A stretch of 51,739 nucleotides of DNA from Ilumatobacteraceae bacterium (GCA_009694465.1 SHUW01000003.1:1-51739), one strand, 5' to 3'. Positions 16,851 through 30,215 are shown, counted from the stretch's first letter. Notes: generated by a model from the sequence alone, not told the origin. Made by a program: numbers and translations.

Positions 16851-18413
16851 ATGGGGAACGCATTTTCCGAGTCTCAGCTGGCGCCCAAACATGTAATTGT
16901 TGTTCTCCTTGACAGCCTTAATCGGCATCTTTTGGGGGCTTACGGAGGATCGGAGTTCACAACCCCCCATTTGGATCGTTTTGCTGACGATGCGCTCGTC
17001 TTTGATCGGCATCACACGGGATCTTTGCCCTGTATGCCGGCACGCCATGATCTGCTTGTTGGAGCCTTGGATTTCCCCTGGCGTCCTTGGGGATCGGTGG
17101 AGATTTGGGAAGACGCGATTACGTATTCGCTGCGCGCTGCGGGCGTAACAACGATGCTTATTTCAGATCATCCGCACCTTTTTGAAGTTGGGGGCGAAAA
17201 TTATCACACGGATTTCACGGCTTGGGAATATGTGCGTGGGCATGAGAACGATCCTTGGAAGACTCGCTCAGATACATCGTGGATCGGTACCCCGGCACTC
17301 CCAGTCAGGGATCCGTGGCGTGGTCACTACAACTATCAGGATTCACGAACTTGGTTTAAAAGTGAAGAGGATTTTCCGGGTCCTCAAACAATGCGCGCTG
17401 CTGTGAATTGGCTGGAAACAAATGCTGGACATCATGAGCGCTCTTTATTGGTCATCGACGAGTTTGATCCCCATGAACCCTTTGACACACCCGAGCCATG
17501 GGCTTCTCAGTATCGCCAAGATCAAAATGATCCTTGGCTGATTTGGCCCCCCTACGTCGTCAACGGTGTCACCGATGGGATTCTGACAGAACAGGAGGGT
17601 CGTGCTTTAAGGTCCGCCTACGGATCCAAATTATCAATGATTGATCATTGGTTTGGGCGTTTACTTGACGCGGTGGATGCCTCACCAGATGCTCACGACA
17701 CAGCAGTCATTGTCTGCACAGATCACGGCCATTACCTTGGTGAAAAAGATGTGTGGGGCAAACCGGGTTACCCGATACATGACACTTTGGGACATATTCC
17801 GTTAATGATTCGGTGGCCAGGAGTTGAAGCGGGTCGTGTGTCGGCGCTGACAACGACAGTGGATATTCACGCCACTTTATGCGACATTTTTTCAGTGGTT
17901 CCTGAGCATCGCACACACGGAGTGTCCCTAGTGCCACTAGTAACTGGGATGGTTTCGAGTGTTCGTGATCATTGTCTATCGGGTTATTGGGGACGCGAAA
18001 TTCAACTCGTGACGCAGACGCACACATACACACGAGGTTCTGTGGGTGAAGGCTTTCCACTTTCAATGTGGTCCAACCGTTGGAGCACCATGCCACTACA
18101 CCTAGCGCCTCAGTTGCGTCTTCCACGTCCTGATCAGCGGGCTTTTCTTGACACAATGCCAGGAACGACGGTCCCTGTCATCCGTCAGCCTTTTGAAATG
18201 GGGGACACGTTGCCTTTTTGGGCTTATGGAGGTTTGAAGAATGAGAACCTCCTCTACGACCGCCAAAGTGATCCTCAACAGTTACAGAATTTGGCAAGCG
18301 CTCAGGGTCAATTGATCTCGCCACTTGAGAGTGAATTACTTGAACACATGAAGCAAGCGCTTGTAGAAATCAATGCGCCGCAAGATCTCATGCAACGCCT
18401 TGGTTTGCTCTAG
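16851..18413 (+). CDS. sulfatase
   Basis: CxPxR motif SLPCMPARHDLL, VIVVLLDSLNR, VCTDHGHYLGEKD; start ATG 16851 after TATCGT-N6. Confidence 0.87.
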   Translation: MGNAFSESQLAPKHVIVVLLDSLNRHLLGAYGGSEFTTPHLDRFADDALVFDRHHTGSLPCMPARHDLLVGALDFPWRPWGSVEIWEDAITYSLRAAGVTTMLISDHPHLFEVGGENYHTDFTAWEYVRGHENDPWKTRSDTSWIGTPALPVRDPWRGHYNYQDSRTWFKSEEDFPGPQTMRAAVNWLETNAGHHERSLLVIDEFDPHEPFDTPEPWASQYRQDQNDPWLIWPPYVVNGVTDGILTEQEGRALRSAYGSKLSMIDHWFGRLLDAVDASPDAHDTAVIVCTDHGHYLGEKDVWGKPGYPIHDTLGHIPLMIRWPGVEAGRVSALTTTVDIHATLCDIFSVVPEHRTHGVSLVPLVTGMVSSVRDHCLSGYWGREIQLVTQTHTYTRGSVGEGFPLSMWSNRWSTMPLHLAPQLRLPRPDQRAFLDTMPGTTVPVIRQPFEMGDTLPFWAYGGLKNENLLYDRQSDPQQLQNLASAQGQLISPLESELLEHMKQALVEINAPQDLMQRLGLL

Positions 18414-20692
18414 AGGCAAATGTCGTAAGGACGAATGGGAACACGTGGTAACTCTCGTCCGGTGGCGTTGCGAATGGCGTTTGCAATCGCAGGAGTGACA
18501 GAGATGCACGGTGGTTCTCCGACGCCCTTGGCTCCGAGTGGTGACTTTGGCTCAAATTCTTCAATCAACACCATCTCCACTAATGGAGCGTCTAGAAAAG
18601 TTGGAAGTAGATAGTCGGTGAAACTTGGATTTCGAACCTTGCCGTCCTTGACAATGATTTCCTCCATCACTGCCAATCCAAGGCCTTGAGCGATGCCCCC
18701 TTCAACTTGGCCTTGCACAGAAATGGGATTGAGTATTCGTCCGACATCTTGCGCAGTCGCAATCTGAACAACTTTCACTAGTCCTAATTCAACATCAACA
18801 TCGACGACGGCACGATGAGCCACAAAAGCAAAAGCTACATGGCAGTTGCCTTGACCATTCTCATCAAGGTCTTCAGTGGGCGGATGGTGATATTCCTCGG
18901 TGCGATCAAGATTGATTCCCTTGCTGGCTTCGCTGACCGCTATTCGACGACCTGAGAGAATGTCCACGATATCGGTTTCCTCAATCCGCACATGATCACG
19001 CGAGAGTTCAAATGTCAGCGCTGCATGATCAAAGAGGTCTTCTAAAACTTTTTCACAAGCAGCCTTGACGGCACCACCACTCATCCAAGTTTGTCGGCTG
19101 GCCGAGGTTGAACCCGCAGAACCTACTTGAGTGTCGATCGTGTCAAGCAAAACCTCATCCACGCCGAGAATTGTGCGTGCAATCTGCTGGGCCAGCATGG
19201 TGAATCCTTGACCCACTTCTGACGTTGCAAATTTCACCGAGACAACTCCGTCAGTCATGCGGCACCGCGCAGTGGAATAGTCATCAAAGCCTTCGCTGTA
19301 CATGAGATTCTTCATGCTGACTCCCCAACCCACACCGCGAACGATGTTTCCTGGTTGCGCAGTGAGTCCTGTACCGCCGGGAATTTGACGGATATCAGCG
19401 TTGGGTAACAACGGTTCTGGCATGGCAATAGCGTCAGTTTCACGAATACATTGCTCGACGGGCGCAACGCTGTCCATGATCTGACCCGTGATCAGTCGAT
19501 CACCGGTCTCCATCACATTTCTCAAACGAATCTCAACGGGGGAGAGACCTAGGGCGACGCCCAATTTCTCCATTTGGCTTTCATGAGCGAAACAGGCCTG
19601 AACGACCCCGAAACCACGCATCGCTCCACAAGGTGGATTATTGGTACGAACCGCCCAGCCTTCAACCGATGCAGTGTCGCATTTGTAGGGGCCTTGGGTG
19701 TGGGTAATGGCATTGATTAAAACTGCGGGAGACGTGCTGCAATAGGCCCCGCCGTCAAACAACATTGTGCTTTCTATCTTGAGTATTTTCCCGTTGCGGT
19801 CGGCGTGATGGCGCATCCAGATGGTGGCAGGGTGACGGTGAACATGACCGTAAAAACTTTCCTCGCGACCATAGGAGATCCTGACTGGGCGCCCACTCTT
19901 GAGAGCTAACAGGCAGGTGTGGACTTGCAAACTGATGTCTTCACGAGCGCCGAAGGCGCCACCAACACCGCCCAAGACCAGCCGAATTTTGTCCTCAGGA
20001 ATATTGAGACAGGCGGCGATTTGTTTTCGATCTTCGTGTAACCATTGCGTGGCGACATAAAGTTCTAGTCCTTCGCCACCTGAATCGGGGATTGCCAAAG
20101 CGCTTTCGAGACCGAGAAAAGCTTGATCTTGCATGCCAATCTCGTATGTTCCTTCAACGATGACGTCACCGACGATTGACTGATCTCCGGTGATGATGCG
20201 CTGATGGCGATAGACATTTCCCTGAGGATGAATCTGCGGCGCAATTCCCGAGACGCAATCTTGTGGATTCGTGACGGGTGTCAAGATTTCGTACACAACT
20301 TTGATCGCTGCCAAAGCTCGCTTGCACGTTTCAGGATGATCTGCCGCTACTGCTGCGATTGGCTCACCGCAATAGCGCACGGTGTCACCGATGGCAGCGA
20401 AGACTGGTTGGTCGCTCATGATTAATCCGTAATAGGGATTTCCGGGCACGTCTTGAGCAGTGACAACACATTCCACACCGTCAATCGCTAAGGCAGCGCT
20501 GTCATCTATCGAAATAATCTTGGCGTAAGGATGCGGACTGCGAAGTGTGGCACCCCACAACATGTTCTCGGACCACATATCGCTTGAAAAAGCAAAGCCG
20601 CCTTGTACTTTTGCGACGCCGTCTGGCCGATGGGCATTTGTACCGAGTGTGCCAGCGCGAGTTGATGTACTCGTTGGGTGAGTCGTTGTCAC
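18410..20692 (-). CDS. xanthine dehydrogenase family, molybdopterin-binding subunit (PucD/XdhA-like)
   Basis: GGVGGAFGAREDIS, RTNNPPCGAMRGFGVVQ, GKARG-like FATSEVGQGFTMLAQQIA, LGAKGVGEPP. Confidence 0.9.
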   Translation of the reverse strand: MTTTHPTSTSTRAGTLGTNAHRPDGVAKVQGGFAFSSDMWSENMLWGATLRSPHPYAKIISIDDSAALAIDGVECVVTAQDVPGNPYYGLIMSDQPVFAAIGDTVRYCGEPIAAVAADHPETCKRALAAIKVVYEILTPVTNPQDCVSGIAPQIHPQGNVYRHQRIITGDQSIVGDVIVEGTYEIGMQDQAFLGLESALAIPDSGGEGLELYVATQWLHEDRKQIAACLNIPEDKIRLVLGGVGGAFGAREDISLQVHTCLLALKSGRPVRISYGREESFYGHVHRHPATIWMRHHADRNGKILKIESTMLFDGGAYCSTSPAVLINAITHTQGPYKCDTASVEGWAVRTNNPPCGAMRGFGVVQACFAHESQMEKLGVALGLSPVEIRLRNVMETGDRLITGQIMDSVAPVEQCIRETDAIAMPEPLLPNADIRQIPGGTGLTAQPGNIVRGVGWGVSMKNLMYSEGFDDYSTARCRMTDGVVSVKFATSEVGQGFTMLAQQIARTILGVDEVLLDTIDTQVGSAGSTSASRQTWMSGGAVKAACEKVLEDLFDHAALTFELSRDHVRIEETDIVDILSGRRIAVSEASKGINLDRTEEYHHPPTEDLDENGQGNCHVAFAFVAHRAVVDVDVELGLVKVVQIATAQDVGRILNPISVQGQVEGGIAQGLGLAVMEEIIVKDGKVRNPSFTDYLLPTFLDAPLVEMVLIEEFEPKSPLGAKGVGEPPCISVTPAIANAIRNATGRELPRVPIRPYDICL

Positions 20693-21183
20693 GATGCGTC
20701 CCGTTGAGAGATGACAATCTTTACGGCTTCAAGGATGCGCCCGTATCCTGTGCAACGACAAATATTGCCAGATAAAGACTCACGAATTTGATCATCGGAG
20801 GGTTCTGGATTGGAGTCAAGCAAGTGGTGCACAGCGACTATGAACCCAGGAGTGCAAAAACCGCATTGCACTCCGCCGGCAGCGAGAAATGCTTGTTGAA
20901 TATCGGTGAGCGAGCCATTCTCTCCTAGACCCTCGACGGTGAGTATTTCCGTGTCGACGGCGGCGGCGGCCATCACCAAGCAGGAACAAACAGCTTGAGA
21001 GTCCATGACAACTGTGCAACTACCGCATTCACCTTGTTCGCAGGCTCCTTTAGCTCCTGGCAATCCAAGACGCTCGCGCAAAACATAGAGCAAACTTTCA
21101 CCGATCCAAGCATCTTTAACCGGATGACTCTGACCGTTAACCTTCAAAGTGTAAATCTCGTTACCTAATTCTTGTGCACTCAT
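20689..21183 (-). CDS. 2Fe-2S subunit of xanthine dehydrogenase family
   Basis: GACEQGECGSCTVVMD and GFCTPGFIVA...GNICRCTGYGRI; start at ATG 21183. Confidence 0.92.
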   Translation of the reverse strand: MSAQELGNEIYTLKVNGQSHPVKDAWIGESLLYVLRERLGLPGAKGACEQGECGSCTVVMDSQAVCSCLVMAAAAVDTEILTVEGLGENGSLTDIQQAFLAAGGVQCGFCTPGFIVAVHHLLDSNPEPSDDQIRESLSGNICRCTGYGRILEAVKIVISQRDAS

Positions 21184-22028
21184 GCTAGGGACCTCACTAA
21201 GAGTCGTTGAGCCAAGATCGCCACACAATGTCGGCGATATGCGGCGGTTGATCTGTGATCATCTATGGGTGTGGCCTCATCCGAGACCCGACGCCCAAAT
21301 TCGACGGCGAGATCAGCATTGATCTGCGCGCCGGCACGCAATGAAGTAGTTTTACGCAACCATTTCTCGGCTTGTGAGCAACGAATGATTGTGGGTCCGA
21401 CGGAGCCCAACGCGATGGAGATCAATCCTTCTTCCGTATCGCGCACTAGGCAAGCTGAGGCGGTGGCGATGACCATGGCATTGCGTGTGCCGACTTTTGC
21501 ATAGCCCTGCCAACCTTGTATGACGGGAACTGTGATGGAGTGCACAAACTCACCAGAGCCAAGAGCGTTCTTCTTGACCCCGAGCATGAACTCTCCCCAG
21601 GCAACATCTCGTGTTCCCTGCGGTCCAATGAGATGAATGACTGCATTAAGAGCTGAAAGGACGGGAAGTGAGTCACCTGCTGGAGAACAGGTTCCGAGAT
21701 TCCCCCCCAAAGTGCCTGCTGCCCGAATCTGCGGAGATCCAACGGTTCGAGCAGCCTGAGCGAGCGCTGGAACAAGTTCGGCAATCTTGCCGGTCTCCAT
21801 CACGGAGTAGGGAACCGCCGAACCAATAGTGACGGTTTGTTGCGTATGTCGATGCGACCACTCATGGAGTTCTTCCACGCGCCGCAGATTGATCACTGTT
21901 TGTGGCTGACGTCCGTGGAGATTGACCTCAACCATAAAGTCTGTTCCTCCAGCAAGCAGGCTCGCATTCGGGTGCTCACTAAGAAGGTCAATCAATTGAT
22001 CGACGCTGGTGGGGCTGAAAACTGGCAC
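21180..22028 (-). CDS. FAD-binding subunit of xanthine dehydrogenase family
   Basis: LLAGGTDFMVEV, AGTLGGNLGTCSPAGDSLPVL; GTG start preceded by TAAACT-N6. Confidence 0.92.
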   Translation of the reverse strand: MPVFSPTSVDQLIDLLSEHPNASLLAGGTDFMVEVNLHGRQPQTVINLRRVEELHEWSHRHTQQTVTIGSAVPYSVMETGKIAELVPALAQAARTVGSPQIRAAGTLGGNLGTCSPAGDSLPVLSALNAVIHLIGPQGTRDVAWGEFMLGVKKNALGSGEFVHSITVPVIQGWQGYAKVGTRNAMVIATASACLVRDTEEGLISIALGSVGPTIIRCSQAEKWLRKTTSLRAGAQINADLAVEFGRRVSDEATPIDDHRSTAAYRRHCVAILAQRLLVRSLA

Positions 22029-22034
22029 TCGCCT

Positions 22035-22051
22035 AGTTTACATTTTGTTAA
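22035..22051 (-). promoter_or_regulatory. Putative operator/promoter: TTAACAAAATGTAAACT (-10 TAAACT), 6 nt before GTG of XDH FAD subunit
   Basis: Exact 17-bp match to 30199-30215; imperfect palindrome TTnACA-N3-TGTnAA. Confidence 0.7.
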
Positions 22052-22452
22052 TCGCCACCACAGTCCAATGATGCTTGAAGTGAGACTTTTTGTTTGAGTT
22101 TGATCACAGAGGCTGTCCCTGCGACGGTCATGAGAAGCAGCACGATACCGTAGGCGATCCATGGAAGCCCTCGACCGGCTGTGAGAAGGTACACATCGGG
22201 TGCTGAAAATGAGAGCATGGTCAGACCTCCCCAGACGATTGATTGGCGAATTTCGTGATACTTCAGGGCGACCGCCATGCGACTAGAGGCCCGCGCAAGA
22301 ATTGGCGAGGAAACGATTTCAATCACCGCAAATATCCAAATATTGATCCCATATTTGGCGAAATAGAGTTCAGCGGTGGCGATCCGCACAAAACTCCACA
22401 GGATGATTAAGCCAAACCAGACTTTTTGCACATAAAACCGCTCTTGAATCAC
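22048..22452 (-). CDS. small multi-pass membrane protein, unknown function
   Basis: Three to four hydrophobic segments; GTG start preceded by TAGCCT-N7. Confidence 0.6.
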   Translation of the reverse strand: MIQERFYVQKVWFGLIILWSFVRIATAELYFAKYGINIWIFAVIEIVSSPILARASSRMAVALKYHEIRQSIVWGGLTMLSFSAPDVYLLTAGRGLPWIAYGIVLLLMTVAGTASVIKLKQKVSLQASLDCGGD

Positions 22453-22487
22453 CCTAAGAAGGCTAAACGGCGTAGGGTATTTTCACA

Positions 22488-23246
22488 GTGTTTAACAAGA
22501 GTCATCCATCACAGGTCACCAACTCAGCCACAGGACCTTCTCCGAAACGGGATTTGTCATTGGCCTTACATGCTTTTACTGCCTCAGGCGTTTTAGTGGG
22601 AATGGCGGCCTTGGTTGCGGTGCTTGATGGATCGGCCCGCTTAGCCATAGTTTGGTTGATTCTCGCCCAACTCATCGATGGCATTGATGGCCCACTTGCC
22701 CGTCGCTTACTGCCTGAGGAGGCGACGACGAAATTCGACGGATACATCCTGGATTTAGTTATTGATTTCGTCACCTGTGTCTTGGTGCCTGCTGCTTTCC
22801 TTTGGCAGTTTGAAATGGTTCCGCACGACAGGGCCGGAATGATTGCGATTGCTGCGATGTTGTTGTTCTCCTGCCTGTGGTTTAGCCGAACTGATCAACA
22901 GGATGATGAGAACTGGTTCCATGGTTATCCGGCCTCGTGGAATATGGTCGTGCCAACGCTGTGGCTGCTCGATACTCCACATGCAGTCAATCTCGTTGTC
23001 GTGGGAGTTCTAGCAATCCTGACGATGACGAATATTCAATTCGCCCACCCAGTGCGAGTCGTGCAGTGGCGAGCATGGAATATGGCATCCATCACTTTTT
23101 GGGTGCTCGGAGTTTTATTTGCAACTATGGCTGCGCCCGACATTCCGGCATTGCTCATTGCCCTGACTGTGCTCGGCCCGCTGATGATCTTTACGGCAAC
23201 GACTGCTCGTGCCGTTCATAATTTGGCAGCGAAAAAATACGCCTGA
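22488..23246 (+). CDS. pcs: phosphatidylcholine synthase (CDP-alcohol phosphatidyltransferase family)
   Basis: DGIDGPLARR...KFDGYILDLVIDFVTCVLVPAAF, WFHGYPASWNMVV, FAHPVRVVQWRAWN, closely matching Pcs signatures. Confidence 0.87.
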   Translation: MFNKSHPSQVTNSATGPSPKRDLSLALHAFTASGVLVGMAALVAVLDGSARLAIVWLILAQLIDGIDGPLARRLLPEEATTKFDGYILDLVIDFVTCVLVPAAFLWQFEMVPHDRAGMIAIAAMLLFSCLWFSRTDQQDDENWFHGYPASWNMVVPTLWLLDTPHAVNLVVVGVLAILTMTNIQFAHPVRVVQWRAWNMASITFWVLGVLFATMAAPDIPALLIALTVLGPLMIFTATTARAVHNLAAKKYA

Positions 23247-23258
23247 CCCTGCAGGACT

Positions 23259-24266
23259 TTAGGCGTGCGGATCCCAATCAGCGAAAGCGTCAATTGTTGC
23301 CGTCACGTCTCCTAGGGGATACAAAATTGGTGTAGTGCATCCGTGGTCTATGTAGTGCTTAACTTTTGCTCTCGCTTCATCTGGCGTTCCGCTCGCAGTC
23401 AACAACTCTACGATTTCGTCGGGGACCAATTTGCTGGCGGCTTCTACCTGCTCGTGAGTTGCAGGCCATGTCAAAACTTCTGCGACTTTATCGAGTAAGG
23501 ATTGTGGAACACCTGAAGCTTTCATGATGTGCGGTTGTTGACCGAGGTATTGAGTGACCATCAGGCGGGCCATGTCAAGTGCGGTCTGGCGATCTTCATG
23601 GACGCTGCAAACAACCAACTGCGGGCGGTCGATGTCATCAAGCGAGCGACCTGCTTTGTGAGCACCGCGTGCCAATGCCTCTAAAGCTTGATCGTTGTAG
23701 TCAGGTGAGACGAGATAATTCAGCACGACACCATCGGCGATTTCGCCAGTAAGTTCCATCATCTGCATACCTGTCGCTCCGATATAGATGGGCACGTCTT
23801 TAGGTCGCCGGTCTTGGTACACATAATCAAGTTCCACACCGTCTAAATGAACATATTCGCCATGAAAAGTGACAGTTTCGTTATGCAACAAGGCACGTAC
23901 TGAATTGACAATCTCACGCATCACTCGCAAGGGCTTACTACGATCAATGCCGACCTTTTGCGCAAGTGGATCCCACCATGCTCCTATGCCAAGGATGACT
24001 CGGCCTGGCGCTAAATCATCCAGGGTGGAAAAAGTTGCCGCTAGTCGGGCTGGGTTTCTACTCCAGCAATCTACGACGCCACTACCGACCTTTATTCGTT
24101 CGGTGACACTGGCAAAGGCTGCCATCGGTACCGTGGCCTCGCGTACTAACCGACTTTCTGCCTGCCACACAGCATCGAAGCCCTTAGTCTCGGCGTATTG
24201 AGCAAACGCCATACCCTCACGAATGGGATGAGCGTCTTGTAAATAGATAGCCACAGATTGTTTCAT
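23259..24266 (-). CDS. LLM-class flavin-dependent oxidoreductase
   Basis: [52 protein letters not shown]; start at ATG 24266. Confidence 0.85.
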
Positions 24267-24303
24267 GTCCCGACCTTTGTTGTGAGAGTTTTTAGATACT
24301 TGC

Positions 24304-25326
24304 TCATAGCAGTGCGAATAATTTTTGCGCTGATTCAGCGGCTTTGGCCCTTGTCTCGTCAAGATCAACTCGCACGGGTCGTCCGTCGGTGAGAAGTTTT
24401 TCCCCGCTGGACGATGTGATCTCGAGGGCGCGAATCCCCGGTGTGAAGGCCGTGTGCCATGGGCTTTCGACACTGTCGTAATTCCATGTCACGGAATCGC
24501 TTTTGCATTCCGGCATGAAGTGATACGAGTTCTCAATCCAATCTTGGGTTGTTTGCGGAGTGATGGTGAGATCGTGGGAGCGACCTGCAACATATGCAAG
24601 GCGCATTTCCTCAAGCATGTCAGCTCCAATTCCATCGGTTCCTAAAATCACTTTGTTTGTTGCACGCGCTGGAAATGCGTACCCGACACCATTATTCATA
24701 TTGCTGCGCGGATTGTGGGCGATTGTTCCCTTGAGTTGTCGATCGAGGTGAACACAGTGCACCAGAAGCCAGTCATCTTTGGCTAAATGTTCCAATCTGC
24801 GCCCTGCATCGTTGTCGTTTGCCCCTTCTGCGACATGTATATGAACGCCAACACCGAGGTCTTGTGCCAGGTCTGCGGATTGTTGTAGCAGTTCATCAGA
24901 ACATGTAAAAGCCGCGTGCACTCCCACCATGCCGTGCCCGCCAGCGCGTATAAAACGCTCATTCTCTTGTAGACCACGTTTGGCTCCGTCAGGACCGTGA
25001 CGATCCGTCACTCCATACGAACACATCACACGAACTCCGACTTCTTGACACGCTTGGGCGATCACATCAAGGCTTCCTTCGATTGCCGATGGGCTTTCGT
25101 GATGATCAATGATTCCTGTCGTGCCGCTCATGAGGGCTTCCATGGCCCCCAACTTGGCAGACCAATAGATCATCTCGAGATCAAGAGCCACATCAAGTCG
25201 CCACCAAACTTGTTGCAAAATACTTAAGAAGTCTGTCGGCGCAACAGGGGGAGCAGGCATTCCGCGGGCCAGGGATGAATACAAATGATGATGCCCGCAG
25301 ATCATCCCAGGCGTCGTAGCAGGCAC
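24304..25326 (-). CDS. SsnA-like amidohydrolase lacking the usual N-terminal segment
   Basis: [63 protein letters not shown] match E. coli SsnA landmarks; GTG start 2 nt after XDH stop. Confidence 0.82.
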
Positions 25327-25328
25327 GG

Positions 25329-27944
25329 TTAATCGTCATCTCCGGTTGCGGGTCGCATCGGTAATTTTGTGCGCCACAGACCGTCGTAATCAAACAATGC
25401 GGCAGCGACTGCGCCTGCGGTGGGCACTAATCCAATTTCACCGACTCCCTTGATGCCATAAGGGGCATTGGGCTCGGGGGATTCAACGAGAATCACTTTG
25501 ACTGGAGGCATATCTTTGGCGCGAATGATGCCAAGACCGCGCAATGTCGTCACGGTGGGGAAGCCGGTGGCAGGATCAGATGGGAAATCCTCGGTCAGGG
25601 CATAACCAAGTCCCATATGGATTGAACCTTCGATCTGTCCTTCGCAAAGAGTGGGATTGACCGCTCGCCCAACATCATGGGCTGCCACAACCTGCGAGAT
25701 TTTTCCTGTCTCTCGATCCATAACAATCAATTGAGACGCGTATCCAAAAGTGGAATGGATGACAGGGTTTTCAACCTCGCCGAGTTTCTGAGTCCAATCA
25801 ATTCGATATTCACCGTAGTGATCCACGCCGATAGCCAGATTCGCGGCACGAGCTGCCTCACAGGCGGCCTTCACCGCACCGGCACCCATCAAAGTGCCAC
25901 GTGAACCCGTCGTCTGACCAAAACCCAATTCACGCGTCGTGTCGACGATGACACGAATCCGTTCAGGGTCAATGCCGAGTTCGTGAACAACAACTTGTAA
26001 CGCCACGGTATTGATACCTTGGCCCATCTCGGTCCAACCGTGTCTCACTTCAACAATTCCATCGCTACGAAAATGAACGACTGCTCCACTCAGTTCTTTA
26101 AATCCGTTACCGAGTCCACTGTTCTTCAATCCAAGTCCCAGACCTACGGCATGTCCAGCGGCGACAGCTTCGTCATAGAAAGGCTTGATTTCATCAAGAC
26201 ACATATCTGCACCGAGACAACCATCGTTCATGATTTGTCCGGGTCCCCAGATTGAACCAGGGTGAATGACATTGCGTTTGCGTATCTCCCAGCCAGAGAT
26301 GCCAACCAGTTGCGCCAGTCGGTCCATGACCCCTTCCATGGCAAACTGTGCCTGATTAGCTCCAAAGCCTCGAAATGCTCCACAAATGGGGTTATTCGTT
26401 CGGGCGGCGATGGCCTCCACATCAATATTGTCCAATGCATAGGGACCACTAGCGTGCCCGGCCATACGCTCCAAGACTTTCATTCCGACGCTGGCGTACG
26501 CACCGCTGTCACCGATTGCGCGAACTTTAAGTGCTGTTAAATGTCCTTCGGCATCGCAGCCAACGGTGTAACGCATCTCAATGGGATGACGCTTTGCGTG
26601 AATCAGCAATGACTCTTCGCGCGACAAAGTGCCTTTGACGGGGACATTGAGGAGCCATGCTGCTAAGGCAGTTTGGGCTTGATTACTCATGTCCTCCTTG
26701 CCACCGAACGCACCACCATTGGACAAAAGTTCCACCGTAATGTGCGAATGATCGATACCTAGAACGCGAGCGATGTCATTGCGGTCATCCCACACTCCTT
26801 GGCCACCTGAGTAGACATGTAGACGACGCTCACCGTCGCTGAGTGAAGGCACAGCAAGGGTGCTTTCAGGTTCCAGAAATGCGTGTTCAATTCTCTGTGT
26901 GCTAAATGACTCATCGACAACGAACTTGCTCGAGGCAAGGGCAGCGTCCACGTTTCCACGTTGATAGGCGCTACGACTCAGCACATTTGACTGAGTTCCC
27001 CAAACCGCTATGTCATCGGACTGAATCGCTATTGCGGCATCTGTGATTGGCGTCAGCGGAGAATAGTCGACATCAACCAACGCCGTTGCCTTGCGCGAGT
27101 TGAGTCGGGTATCAGCCACGACTACTGCCAGAACATCGCCTGCATAACTCGTTCGACCACCGACGGGGATCATGATCGGCCAGTCTTTATAGATCAATCC
27201 CACCTTTAATTCACCAGGTATATCTGCAGCAGTAAAAACCGCTACAACTCCGGGTGAAGAGAGGGCTTGCGTCGTATCAATTCCGTTGATGTCTGCCCGT
27301 GCATGTTTAGTGAGGACTAATGAAGCATGCAACATTCCGGGGACGCGCAGGTCGTCAATGTAACCCCGATCACCGAGAGCTAATTCTCTGGCTTCATATT
27401 TCATTCCCCCTGAGCCGATACCTGTGGGTTGTACTGGACGGAGATTTTTGCCAAGGGCCACAGATTCGATGGCTTCTAGGACCTTGACATATCCAGTGCA
27501 CCGACAGAGATTTGCTCCAAGATGACGCGACATATCTCCCTTTGTGAGAGCCGCTCCCTTTTTGTCTATTTGCCCCTTAGCGCGCATCACGATTCCGGGA
27601 ATACAAAAACCACACTGCAGAGCCCCGCAAGCAGCAAAAGCATTGGCGTAAGAATCTCTTTCTTCAAGAGGTAGACCTTCTAAGGTGACGATGGTCTTTC
27701 CAGCGACTTTGCTCAGTGATTGTTGACAACTGACGATGACTTTTCCGTCAATCAACACCGTGCAACATCCGCATTGGCCAGTTGGCGAACACCCATCTTT
27801 CGCAGAAGTGATATTTAGTTCTTCTCGTAAGGCTGCAAGAAGATGGGGATGAGACGAATCCACCGTGACGTCACGCCCGTTGACTCGAAGGGCCACTCGT
27901 GTGCCTCCTTGGTCATCGGTTTGAACATTGCGTGTTTCTGTCAT
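25329..27944 (-). CDS. xanthine dehydrogenase-type enzyme, 2Fe-2S domain fused to molybdopterin-binding domain (XdhD/selenium-dependent-XDH-like)
   Basis: GCSPTGQCGCCTVLIDG, GFCIPGIVMRAKG, ANLCRCTGYVKV fused to GGAFGGKEDMS, RTNNPICGAFRGFGANQAQFAMEG, YGIKGVGEIG. Confidence 0.88.
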   Translation of the reverse strand: MTETRNVQTDDQGGTRVALRVNGRDVTVDSSHPHLLAALREELNITSAKDGCSPTGQCGCCTVLIDGKVIVSCQQSLSKVAGKTIVTLEGLPLEERDSYANAFAACGALQCGFCIPGIVMRAKGQIDKKGAALTKGDMSRHLGANLCRCTGYVKVLEAIESVALGKNLRPVQPTGIGSGGMKYEARELALGDRGYIDDLRVPGMLHASLVLTKHARADINGIDTTQALSSPGVVAVFTAADIPGELKVGLIYKDWPIMIPVGGRTSYAGDVLAVVVADTRLNSRKATALVDVDYSPLTPITDAAIAIQSDDIAVWGTQSNVLSRSAYQRGNVDAALASSKFVVDESFSTQRIEHAFLEPESTLAVPSLSDGERRLHVYSGGQGVWDDRNDIARVLGIDHSHITVELLSNGGAFGGKEDMSNQAQTALAAWLLNVPVKGTLSREESLLIHAKRHPIEMRYTVGCDAEGHLTALKVRAIGDSGAYASVGMKVLERMAGHASGPYALDNIDVEAIAARTNNPICGAFRGFGANQAQFAMEGVMDRLAQLVGISGWEIRKRNVIHPGSIWGPGQIMNDGCLGADMCLDEIKPFYDEAVAAGHAVGLGLGLKNSGLGNGFKELSGAVVHFRSDGIVEVRHGWTEMGQGINTVALQVVVHELGIDPERIRVIVDTTRELGFGQTTGSRGTLMGAGAVKAACEAARAANLAIGVDHYGEYRIDWTQKLGEVENPVIHSTFGYASQLIVMDRETGKISQVVAAHDVGRAVNPTLCEGQIEGSIHMGLGYALTEDFPSDPATGFPTVTTLRGLGIIRAKDMPPVKVILVESPEPNAPYGIKGVGEIGLVPTAGAVAAALFDYDGLWRTKLPMRPATGDDD

Positions 27945-28903
27945 GGCTTTGGCTGCACAATCGCTCCACGCTGGCTAGTGATGCGTTGATACATGTCTGG
28001 ACGCCGGTATTTGTCAAAATCAAAGAGCGTGTTCTTATAGCGCTGGCACCAATCAAGATCGCAAGACGCCACAATGAGTTCGTCGTCAGTGGTCAGTGTG
28101 CGCGCAATTATTTCTCCACTCGGCGCCACGATAGATGTTTGGCCTAGTGAGTCGACACCTTCTTCAACGCCAGCCTTTGCGACACCGACAACCCATGTTC
28201 CATTTTGGTAAGCCCCTGATTGCATAACTAACGAGTTGTGGAAACCCTGCAGAATATCTTGGCTTGGATCTGGAACATAGTGAATGGGTGTGTTGTATCC
28301 ACAGAGGATCAACTCGACGCCCTGCAAACCCATTTCACGATATGACTCAGGCCAGCGACGGTCGTTGCAAATCATCATGCCAACAAGCCCATTGAAACAA
28401 TGCCAAACTCCGAAGCCTTCTGTTCCTGGTTCAAAGTAGTAACGCTCAGCATGTTGAAATGGGCGATCAGGTTCATGATGGGCGTGACCAGGAATGTGCA
28501 CCTTGCGGTAGTGAGCGACGACTGACCCATCTTTGTCGACTAAAATCTGAGTGTTGTAACGGTGTCTCACACCTGCCTCATCTGGTGTAGTGAGTTCGGC
28601 GTAACCCAGGCAGAAGCCGATTCCGAGTTTCTTGGCTTCGTCAAAAAGTGGCTGAGTTTCAGAACTGGGCATGCTGCTTTCGTACCAATGGTCTGTCTCC
28701 GAAATGTCATCCACAAACCATCGCGGGAAAAAAGTTGTTAATGCAAGTTCAGGAAAAACGACAAGATCACAACCGCGCGATTTAGCTTCACGTAATAGAG
28801 CGATTAAACGCGCTACGACTTCGGTTCGAGAATGATGCTTTTGAATCGGCCCTAATTGTGCTGCACCGACGACAACCGTGCGAGATAGAGAGTTCATCGT
28901 CAA
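27941..28903 (-). CDS. N-carbamoyl-D-amino-acid hydrolase-like nitrilase-superfamily enzyme
   Basis: VFPELALTTFFPRWF, YRKVHIPGH, PFQHAERYYFEPG, MMICNDRRWPESYREMGLQG, SYQNG-like AYQNGTW; matches D-carbamoylase. Confidence 0.85.
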   Translation of the reverse strand: MTMNSLSRTVVVGAAQLGPIQKHHSRTEVVARLIALLREAKSRGCDLVVFPELALTTFFPRWFVDDISETDHWYESSMPSSETQPLFDEAKKLGIGFCLGYAELTTPDEAGVRHRYNTQILVDKDGSVVAHYRKVHIPGHAHHEPDRPFQHAERYYFEPGTEGFGVWHCFNGLVGMMICNDRRWPESYREMGLQGVELILCGYNTPIHYVPDPSQDILQGFHNSLVMQSGAYQNGTWVVGVAKAGVEEGVDSLGQTSIVAPSGEIIARTLTTDDELIVASCDLDWCQRYKNTLFDFDKYRRPDMYQRITSQRGAIVQPKP

Positions 28904-30192
28904 TCTCCTGTTTTCTCGTCAAAATTCATATGCGCTAACTGCCACATCGTGTCTAATAAAATATTCGAGCCATCAATGAGGTCGTCTGGTTCAGTAAATT
29001 CGGCTGGATTGTGGCTGATACCTAAAACCGACGGTGTAAAAATCATTGATGAAGGGCATACCCTCGCCAACATCTGCGCATCGTGACCTGCACCAGATGG
29101 CATTCTCATGACGGAGTGTCCATGGCTCTCGGTGAGACTTTCAATCAAGTCAATAACCCGAGGGTCAAACACGACTGGTTCAAAACGCGCCAATATCCTT
29201 GTCGTGATGCTGACTCCTTCGGAGTGAGCAAGGGCGTTCATGAACTCGGCAACTTCAGACTCCGCTTGTTGCAGAATGAGTTCATCGGTATTTCGAATAT
29301 CGAGTGTGAGGAGAGCTGATTTTGGTACGACATTAATAAGGTTGGGATGTATGTCGATTTTGCCGACGGTGCAGACTTGATGCCCGCCTAACCGCTCGGC
29401 CAATTCACGTAAAAATACGGTGATCTTTGCCGCCACAAATGCTGGATCGTGGCGCAGCGACATGGGGGTGGTCCCTGCATGGTTGCTTTGCCCCTCAATG
29501 AGCACTTCCTGCCATGAAATTCCTTGCACCCCAGTAACTGCTCCGAATCGCACGCCCTGTGCCTCGAGTAGCGGACCTTGCTCAATATGCAGTTCCACGA
29601 AGGCGTGGGGTACGGCTCCTGGGCTTGGGGATGAACCGGCGTATTCAATACGGTTCAATTCGTCGGCCAACAAGGCACCATCAATGGAGACGGTGTTCAG
29701 TGCTTCCTCGAGTGCCATTCCACCTGCAAAAACTAAAGAACCCATCATGTCGGGCTGGAAGCGAGCACCTTCCTCGTTGGTAAAAACGCCGACGCTCAAG
29801 GGTCGGGGTGGCGATAATTGAGCGGCCATAAGGGTTTCAATGACCTCAAGGCCCGCCAGTACACCCAGATTTCCGTCGTAACGGCCTCCAGTGCGCACAG
29901 TATCAATGTGGCTACCAGTCATCACTGGGGCGCCACATCCGACATTCCATGTGCCGACTATATTGCCGATGCCGTCAATGGAAATCTCCAAACCGAGATC
30001 CTTCATCCAGGTCACGATCAGGTCGCGGCCGAGCCGATCTTCATCGGTGAGTGCCAAGCGACAGGACCCGCCACCAGGAATCGGACCGATGTCAGCAAGT
30101 TCTTGCAGCCTGCTGAGGAGGCGAGTTCCAGAGACATGCACGCCCAAGGAGGTGGGTGGTCTTACGCTGAAGGAGTTCTCCGATCCGGACAC
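28900..30192 (-). CDS. M20-family Zn amidohydrolase (N-carbamoyl-L-amino-acid hydrolase / allantoate amidohydrolase type)
   Basis: GSHIDTVRTGGRYDGNLGVLAGLE, NEEGARFQP, ELHIEQGPLLE, HAGTTPMSLRHD, MPSGAGHDAQMLA; GTG start preceded by TAAACT-N6. Confidence 0.88.
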   Translation of the reverse strand: MSGSENSFSVRPPTSLGVHVSGTRLLSRLQELADIGPIPGGGSCRLALTDEDRLGRDLIVTWMKDLGLEISIDGIGNIVGTWNVGCGAPVMTGSHIDTVRTGGRYDGNLGVLAGLEVIETLMAAQLSPPRPLSVGVFTNEEGARFQPDMMGSLVFAGGMALEEALNTVSIDGALLADELNRIEYAGSSPSPGAVPHAFVELHIEQGPLLEAQGVRFGAVTGVQGISWQEVLIEGQSNHAGTTPMSLRHDPAFVAAKITVFLRELAERLGGHQVCTVGKIDIHPNLINVVPKSALLTLDIRNTDELILQQAESEVAEFMNALAHSEGVSITTRILARFEPVVFDPRVIDLIESLTESHGHSVMRMPSGAGHDAQMLARVCPSSMIFTPSVLGISHNPAEFTEPDDLIDGSNILLDTMWQLAHMNFDEKTGD

Positions 30193-30198
30193 AGAGCA

Positions 30199-30215
30199 AG
30201 TTTACATTTTGTTAA
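30199..30215 (-). promoter_or_regulatory. Putative operator/promoter: TTAACAAAATGTAAACT (-10 TAAACT), 6 nt before GTG of M20 amidohydrolase
   Basis: Exact 17-bp match to 22035-22051 with identical spacing to the start codon. Confidence 0.7.

Follow-up and report, generated by a model that had tools for sequence, protein, structure and literature searches.

A 17-bp palindromic element, present in two identical copies in a 51,739-nt stretch of DNA from an Ilumatobacteraceae bacterium (GCA_009694465.1 SHUW01000003.1:1-51739; the window), is very probably an operator for a single regulator, most likely a repressor, which would co-regulate purine/ureide-type catabolic operons, the likeliest binder being an HTH_22 protein with a small partner protein. 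On the minus strand the element, TTAACAAAATGTAAACT, lies at 22051-22035 and 30215-30199, in front of two operons that encode xanthine dehydrogenases (XDH), of which the first is headed by xdhB and the second by an M20 amidohydrolase gene. An earlier note on this DNA had reported the identical 17-mer before both XDH operons, and both copies were confirmed, each separated by 6 nt from a GTG start codon (AGGCGA before the GTG at 22028 and TGCTCT before the GTG at 30192). Its proposal that one operator co-regulates the two operons is backed by the target specificity of the element and by its conservation at orthologous promoters.

22035..22051, minus strand: predicted operator copy 1, core palindrome TTAACAAAATGTAAA at 22051-22037; conserved at orthologous xdhB promoters
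22035..22040, minus strand: predicted -10 TAAACT of the leaderless xdhB promoter (TANNNT-N6-GTG; enrichment at spacer 6; kept in all 34 sites of the gap-8 register)
30199..30215, minus strand: predicted operator copy 2, core palindrome at 30215-30201; conserved at orthologous M20 promoters
30199..30204, minus strand: predicted -10 TAAACT of the leaderless M20 promoter (TANNNT-N6-GTG; enrichment at spacer 6; gap-8 conservation)

Specificity and conservation of the palindrome

With up to three mismatches allowed, the two copies are the only matches to the 17-mer in the window, where shuffled sequence averages 0.08. Across the whole draft genome (1,482,239 bases, 69% complete), the 17-mer (≤3 mismatches) and the palindrome pattern TTWACANNNTGTWAA both match these two sites only, and the backwards controls match none. 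The flanks of the two copies are unlike, with identities of 11/60 upstream and 14/43 downstream. Copy 1 holds the TAA stop codon of a 134-aa membrane-protein open reading frame (ORF) at 22048-22452, as had been described previously.

The closest named relatives of the source organism are acIV, Ilumatobacteraceae and other Acidimicrobiia metagenome-assembled genomes. Within the genus, the strict pattern TTWACANNNTGTWAA found sites in 11 of the 23 other genomes. As this pattern misses about half of the genus, in which the outer half-site is often TTGACA, the third position was relaxed, and the resulting pattern, TTDACANNNTGTHAA, finds one to five sites in each of the 24 genus genomes (62 in total, against four for the backwards pattern). 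Inspection of the flanks placed 57 of the 62 matches at three orthologous promoters, those of the M20 operon (20), of xdhB (17) and of a gene for a PALP-fold protein (CysK-like, a pyridoxal phosphate enzyme; 20), so the element is not widespread at unrelated genes; the remaining five lie elsewhere, at about the control level. The inverted-repeat site is concentrated at promoters of functionally related genes, as for an operator of a shared transcription factor, and it is conserved at the orthologous promoters of related species. Both half-sites, including the outer one, are kept at these promoters, and within the 5' half position 3 is the only one to vary much.

The earlier note had found no third copy by eye, and none is present in the draft genome, but a third genus-wide target does exist, the PALP promoter. 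The simplest reason for its absence from the source genome is loss at a contig end: the PALP gene (G000:C10:17973-18719, L256) is cut by the end of contig C10 and its promoter is missing from the assembly.

At the level of the class, 80 Acidimicrobiia loci with a fused XDH (1.28 Mb) contain 19 exact and 39 one-mismatch matches to TTWACANNNTGTWAA (backwards 0 and 2), and a second set of class regions contains 26 exact and 15 one-mismatch matches to TTDACANNNTGTHAA (backwards 0 and 0). Where the genes are dispersed, XDH, carbon-nitrogen hydrolase (CN-hydrolase), SsnA, luciferase-like (LLM) oxidoreductase or YgfK genes are preceded by an operator copy of their own. The consensus derived from 123 distinct contexts is TT(G/T/A)ACA-N3-TGT(A/C/T)AA, with position 3 of the 5' half distributed as G83/T27/A13. 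Positions 1, 5, 11 and 12 are invariant, although selection of sites at ≤1 mismatch builds in some of this invariance. Variants of the operator, among them TTGACANNNTGTTGA and TTGACAGATCGTMAA, are found in more distant lineages.

In some lineages the operator is doubled, two copies standing in tandem at a distance of 18-23 bp (L091:7724-7759, L120:9449-9481 and L261:5168-5205), an arrangement that suggests cooperative binding. Two further arrangements were observed. In G054, a genome without HTH_22 or fused XDH, two close palindromes of the operator type, one exact and one with a mismatch, lie at G054:C13:43103 (L220:5104 and 5136). A perfect palindrome, TTAACACNGTGTTAA, occurs at G010:C193:9556 and G021:C26:3789 (L031 and L033) in conserved surroundings unrelated to the regulon.

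Position of the operator relative to the promoter

In Actinobacteria, the signal of leaderless genes is a TANNNT -10 element approximately 12 bp before the start codon (PMC3160421), and the same geometry is found here; unlike Actinobacterial leaderless promoters generally, the -10 is embedded in the operator palindrome. In the window, TANNNT stands at a spacer of exactly 6 before 13 of 78 candidate starts and at any other spacer before at most four, which agrees with the earlier assignment of TAAACT as the -10 of leaderless promoters; such promoters look common in the source organism. The equal 6-nt spacing, which the same note had stressed, is exact at both copies but constitutes ordinary leaderless-promoter geometry and no extra evidence for an operator.

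The palindrome adopts several registers, classed here by the gap before the start codon. At a gap of 8, the end of the palindrome forms the -10, and TAAACT is conserved in all 34 sites, while at gaps of 1-3 the -10 may be a CAAACT or CAAAAT within the palindrome; as the operator contains the -10 in both classes, these counts are not independent evidence. At gaps of 20-25, the TTGACA of the palindrome may serve as a -35, the corresponding -10 being 6-7 nt upstream of the start codon. At a gap of 30, the palindrome is upstream of TATGGT-N6-start, spanning roughly -45 to -31 relative to the predicted start. Outside the operator, NANNNT is found at a spacer of 6-7 in 11/14 sites of the gap 20-25 class and 6/6 of the gap-30 class, and approximately 29 sites in other registers display no clear -10 at the expected place. 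The site thus overlaps the predicted core promoter, supplying the -10 or the -35 in several registers. The main argument for steric repression is that a protein on the palindrome would hinder polymerase in nearly all registers.

An HTH_22 protein as the candidate regulator

The conserved neighbours of the fused XDH are mostly enzymes, and HTH_22 (PF13309) was found among them. In the source genome, the gene for this protein follows a small partner gene, outside the window:

G000:C4:19964-20200 (L214:5965-6201): Thiamine_BP/MTH1187-like gene, 78 aa; overlaps the start of the HTH_22 gene by ATGA
G000:C4:20197-20586 (L214:6198-6587): HTH_22 gene

The HTH_22 protein scores 73.7 bits against a Pfam cut-off of 29.6. 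The gene is single-copy and is carried by 12/12 family genomes outside the genus that have the fused XDH; it is absent from the one such genome that lacks the enzyme. Among 149 class genomes, HTH_22 and fused XDH occur together in 39, HTH_22 only in 2, XDH only in 15 and neither in 93 (two split XDH genes scored as present; Fisher p 4.5e-21). For the XDH-bearing genomes, the operator is found in 28/39 with HTH_22 vs 1/15 without (Fisher p 2.4e-5), a division which indicates that the operator tracks the regulator gene and not the enzyme. Two HTH_22 genomes without fused XDH keep a site near HTH_22. Tandem operator copies precede the CN-hydrolase/SsnA/YgfK genes in G184, and a one-mismatch copy lies between HTH_22 and an amidohydrolase gene in G168. 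No site or close HTH_22 relative was identified in the stretch examined of G050, which has an HTH_22 protein without fused XDH. At many loci, HTH_22 (alone or as the cassette) and the target operon diverge, and the site occupies the gap between them.

The residue that follows SR in the recognition helix covaries with the 3' half-site, Phe accompanying TGTTGA and Ile accompanying TGTHAA. If HTH_22 is the binder, a protein with SRFT should prefer TTGACANNNTGTTGA and one with SRIT TTGACANNNTGTAAA. A search for solved relatives of the DNA-binding part gave nothing significant by sequence or by predicted fold (model mean pLDDT 80.8); the PDB profile matches belong to the Thiamine_BP part. By its distribution, linkage and covariation, the HTH_22 protein appears to be the best regulator candidate for this operator.

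The 78-aa partner gene is preceded by a promoter-like TACGAT-N6-GTG. Most genomes have the partner and HTH_22 genes side by side, and several lineages have them fused; the Thiamine_BP family was not found in four tested XDH-bearing genomes that lack HTH_22. This architecture suggests that the partner is a sensor subunit, and judging from the gene set its ligand may be a purine, a ureide or a carbamoyl compound. On balance, the evidence leans towards a class-wide Acidimicrobiia regulon under a split one-component regulator, in which an MTH1187/thiamine-binding-like sensor and an HTH_22 DNA-binding subunit would be encoded by two overlapping genes, fused in some lineages, and the operator would lie over promoters in several registers, lending them a -10 (TAAACT or CAAACT) or a -35 (TTGACA).

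In the proposed mechanism, the operator of the source genus would sit over the -10 of leaderless promoters (TGTAAACT-N6-GTG), where the bound regulator would block access of RNA polymerase to the promoter until released by a metabolite. The HTH_22 protein would bind the DNA and the 78-aa Thiamine_BP/MTH1187-like product would sense the ligand. Both physical binding by HTH_22 and repression rather than activation are deduced here from sequence comparisons.

Several observations weigh against this assignment. In the source genus, the HTH_22 cassette lies apart from the operons, and within the DNA examined it has no site. Eleven of the 39 genomes with both XDH and HTH_22 have no exact operator match, some of them displaying variants (G038). 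Conversely, G195 contains two operator-like sites (G195:C33:1566 and 2756, L263), one of them just upstream of xdhB, and HTH_22 was not found in it. The covariation of helix and half-site may represent a single event, as the tree does not resolve one from several origins, and the co-occurrence and operator statistics are not corrected for phylogeny. Finally, the Thiamine_BP-like protein of the source genome itself scores 20.1 bits, below the Pfam cut-off of 24.9, homologues in L112, L110, L086 and L118 being above it.

Alternative explanations

The same operator and regulon could be served by a protein that activates, or that both activates and represses. The gap-30 class would suit such a protein, the site lying upstream of the -10, at a position where some activators bind. 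Yet the -10 itself is covered in most registers, and orthologous promoters differ in register, a pattern that fits steric repression better; activation is considered unlikely. Slightly less credence is given to a real operator bound by another regulator, either one that went unnoticed or, for example, the SufR-like winged-helix protein whose gene (L239:742-1428 and orthologues), in several genomes of the genus, is oriented divergently to the PALP gene at the promoter that carries the operator. The sites of G195 also speak for another regulator. Against it, co-occurrence, linkage and covariation all belong to HTH_22, and in the loci searched the SufR-like gene was seen only beside PALP in the genus, other genera having other neighbours at that place. 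The SufR-like protein was set aside as general regulator on this ground.

That the element is a generic promoter sequence, a -10 with AT-rich surroundings that is palindromic by accident, has very little probability left. Part of the palindrome does act as the predicted -10 in the genus, but a generic element is at odds with the presence of only two sites in the draft genome and with the three promoters that account for nearly all genus sites, and elsewhere the same palindrome stands upstream of the -10 or supplies the -35; the genome-wide counts have in practice already refuted this explanation. Even less probable is a chance repeat, a recent promoter duplication or an element acting at the RNA level, for which the occurrence of an identical 17-mer twice in one window might be invoked. 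Chance or duplication was ruled out by the shuffled-sequence average and by the unlike flanks, the unrelatedness of which was the reason for dismissing a recent promoter duplication, and orthologous copies are conserved in other genomes. An Rfam search gave no match to an RNA element, and the predicted leaderless transcripts would exclude the palindrome.

Genes of the two operons

The gene content of both operons, as given in the earlier note, was reproduced by Pfam and NCBIfam matches.

21180..22028, minus strand: xdhB, FAD subunit, GTG start (Pfam FAD_binding_5, CO_deh_flav_C)
20689..21228, minus strand: xdhC, [2Fe-2S] subunit (Pfam Fer2, Fer2_2)
18410..20692, minus strand: xdhA, molybdopterin subunit (NCBIfam pucD above cut-off; Pfam)
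28900..30192, minus strand: M20 amidohydrolase of allantoate amidohydrolase/carbamoylase type, first gene of operon 2 (Pfam Peptidase_M20; NCBIfam TIGR01879 and NF006771 above cut-off)
27941..28903, minus strand: carbon-nitrogen hydrolase (Pfam CN_hydrolase)
25329..27944, minus strand: fused FeS-MoCo xanthine-dehydrogenase-like protein (Pfam; NCBIfam TIGR03311 Se_dep_XDH)
24304..25326, minus strand: SsnA-like amidohydrolase (Pfam/NCBIfam)
23259..24473, minus strand: LLM oxidoreductase (Pfam/NCBIfam); listed ORF start overlaps SsnA

The match of the fused XDH to TIGR03311 is borderline (833 bits, cut-off 830.45), and many class homologues score just below the cut-off. The alignment of the SsnA-like ORF to the SsnA family model begins near model position 57, its usual N-terminus being missing or its start misjudged. 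The true start of the LLM gene is probably further inside than the listed ORF start.

Relation to known systems and significance

Pseudomonas DauR is an HTH_22 regulator. The candidate regulator resembles DauR, E. coli YheO and Campylobacter Cj1387c in its C-terminal HTH_22 domain. These three proteins have an N-terminal PAS_6 (YheO-like) domain, in contrast with the short, different N-terminus of the candidate and its Thiamine_BP/MTH1187-like partner or fusion; as no match to PAS_6 was found in the HTH_22 proteins scanned, the candidate was not classed as YheO/DauR type. The related Cj1387c represses an adjacent gene (PMC4519771), and, unlike all three, the candidate would control several dispersed operons. 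The partner and the fused forms, the latter in their N-terminal part, match the small proteins MTH1187 and TM0486 (PF01910 Thiamine_BP; PDB codes 1lxn, 1vk8 and 1yqh), from which they differ in being joined to a DNA-binding protein by gene overlap or fusion.

The operons share XDH subunits, an M20 hydrolase, SsnA and, in some lineages, a YgfK-like protein with the E. coli yge/ygf purine cluster (ygeW-ygeZ, ssnA, xdhABC, ygfK; PMC4016543) and with selenium-dependent molybdenum hydroxylase sets. They differ from the E. coli cluster in the regulator and operator, in an M20 enzyme of the allantoate/hydantoin type and in the presence of an LLM oxidoreductase. The system would work like a local catabolic repressor regulon. 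The open-access papers searched contain no account of this operator, of HTH_22 control over xanthine dehydrogenase or of a purine regulon in Ilumatobacter. The kind of control is ordinary, the new regulon is well supported, and the split-regulator architecture looks new.

For a large class of actinobacteria from fresh water, the sea and soil, most of it uncultured, these observations predict a regulon, with its operator defined, its targets listed and a specific regulator proposed. They point to a function for HTH_22 proteins that lack a PAS_6 sensor, and suggest that the MTH1187-like small proteins, which are widespread, may act in sensing. The predicted co-regulation ties together the genes for fused XDH, M20, CN-hydrolase, SsnA, LLM, YgfK-like and PALP proteins, and may thereby help to decide the substrate of the pathway.

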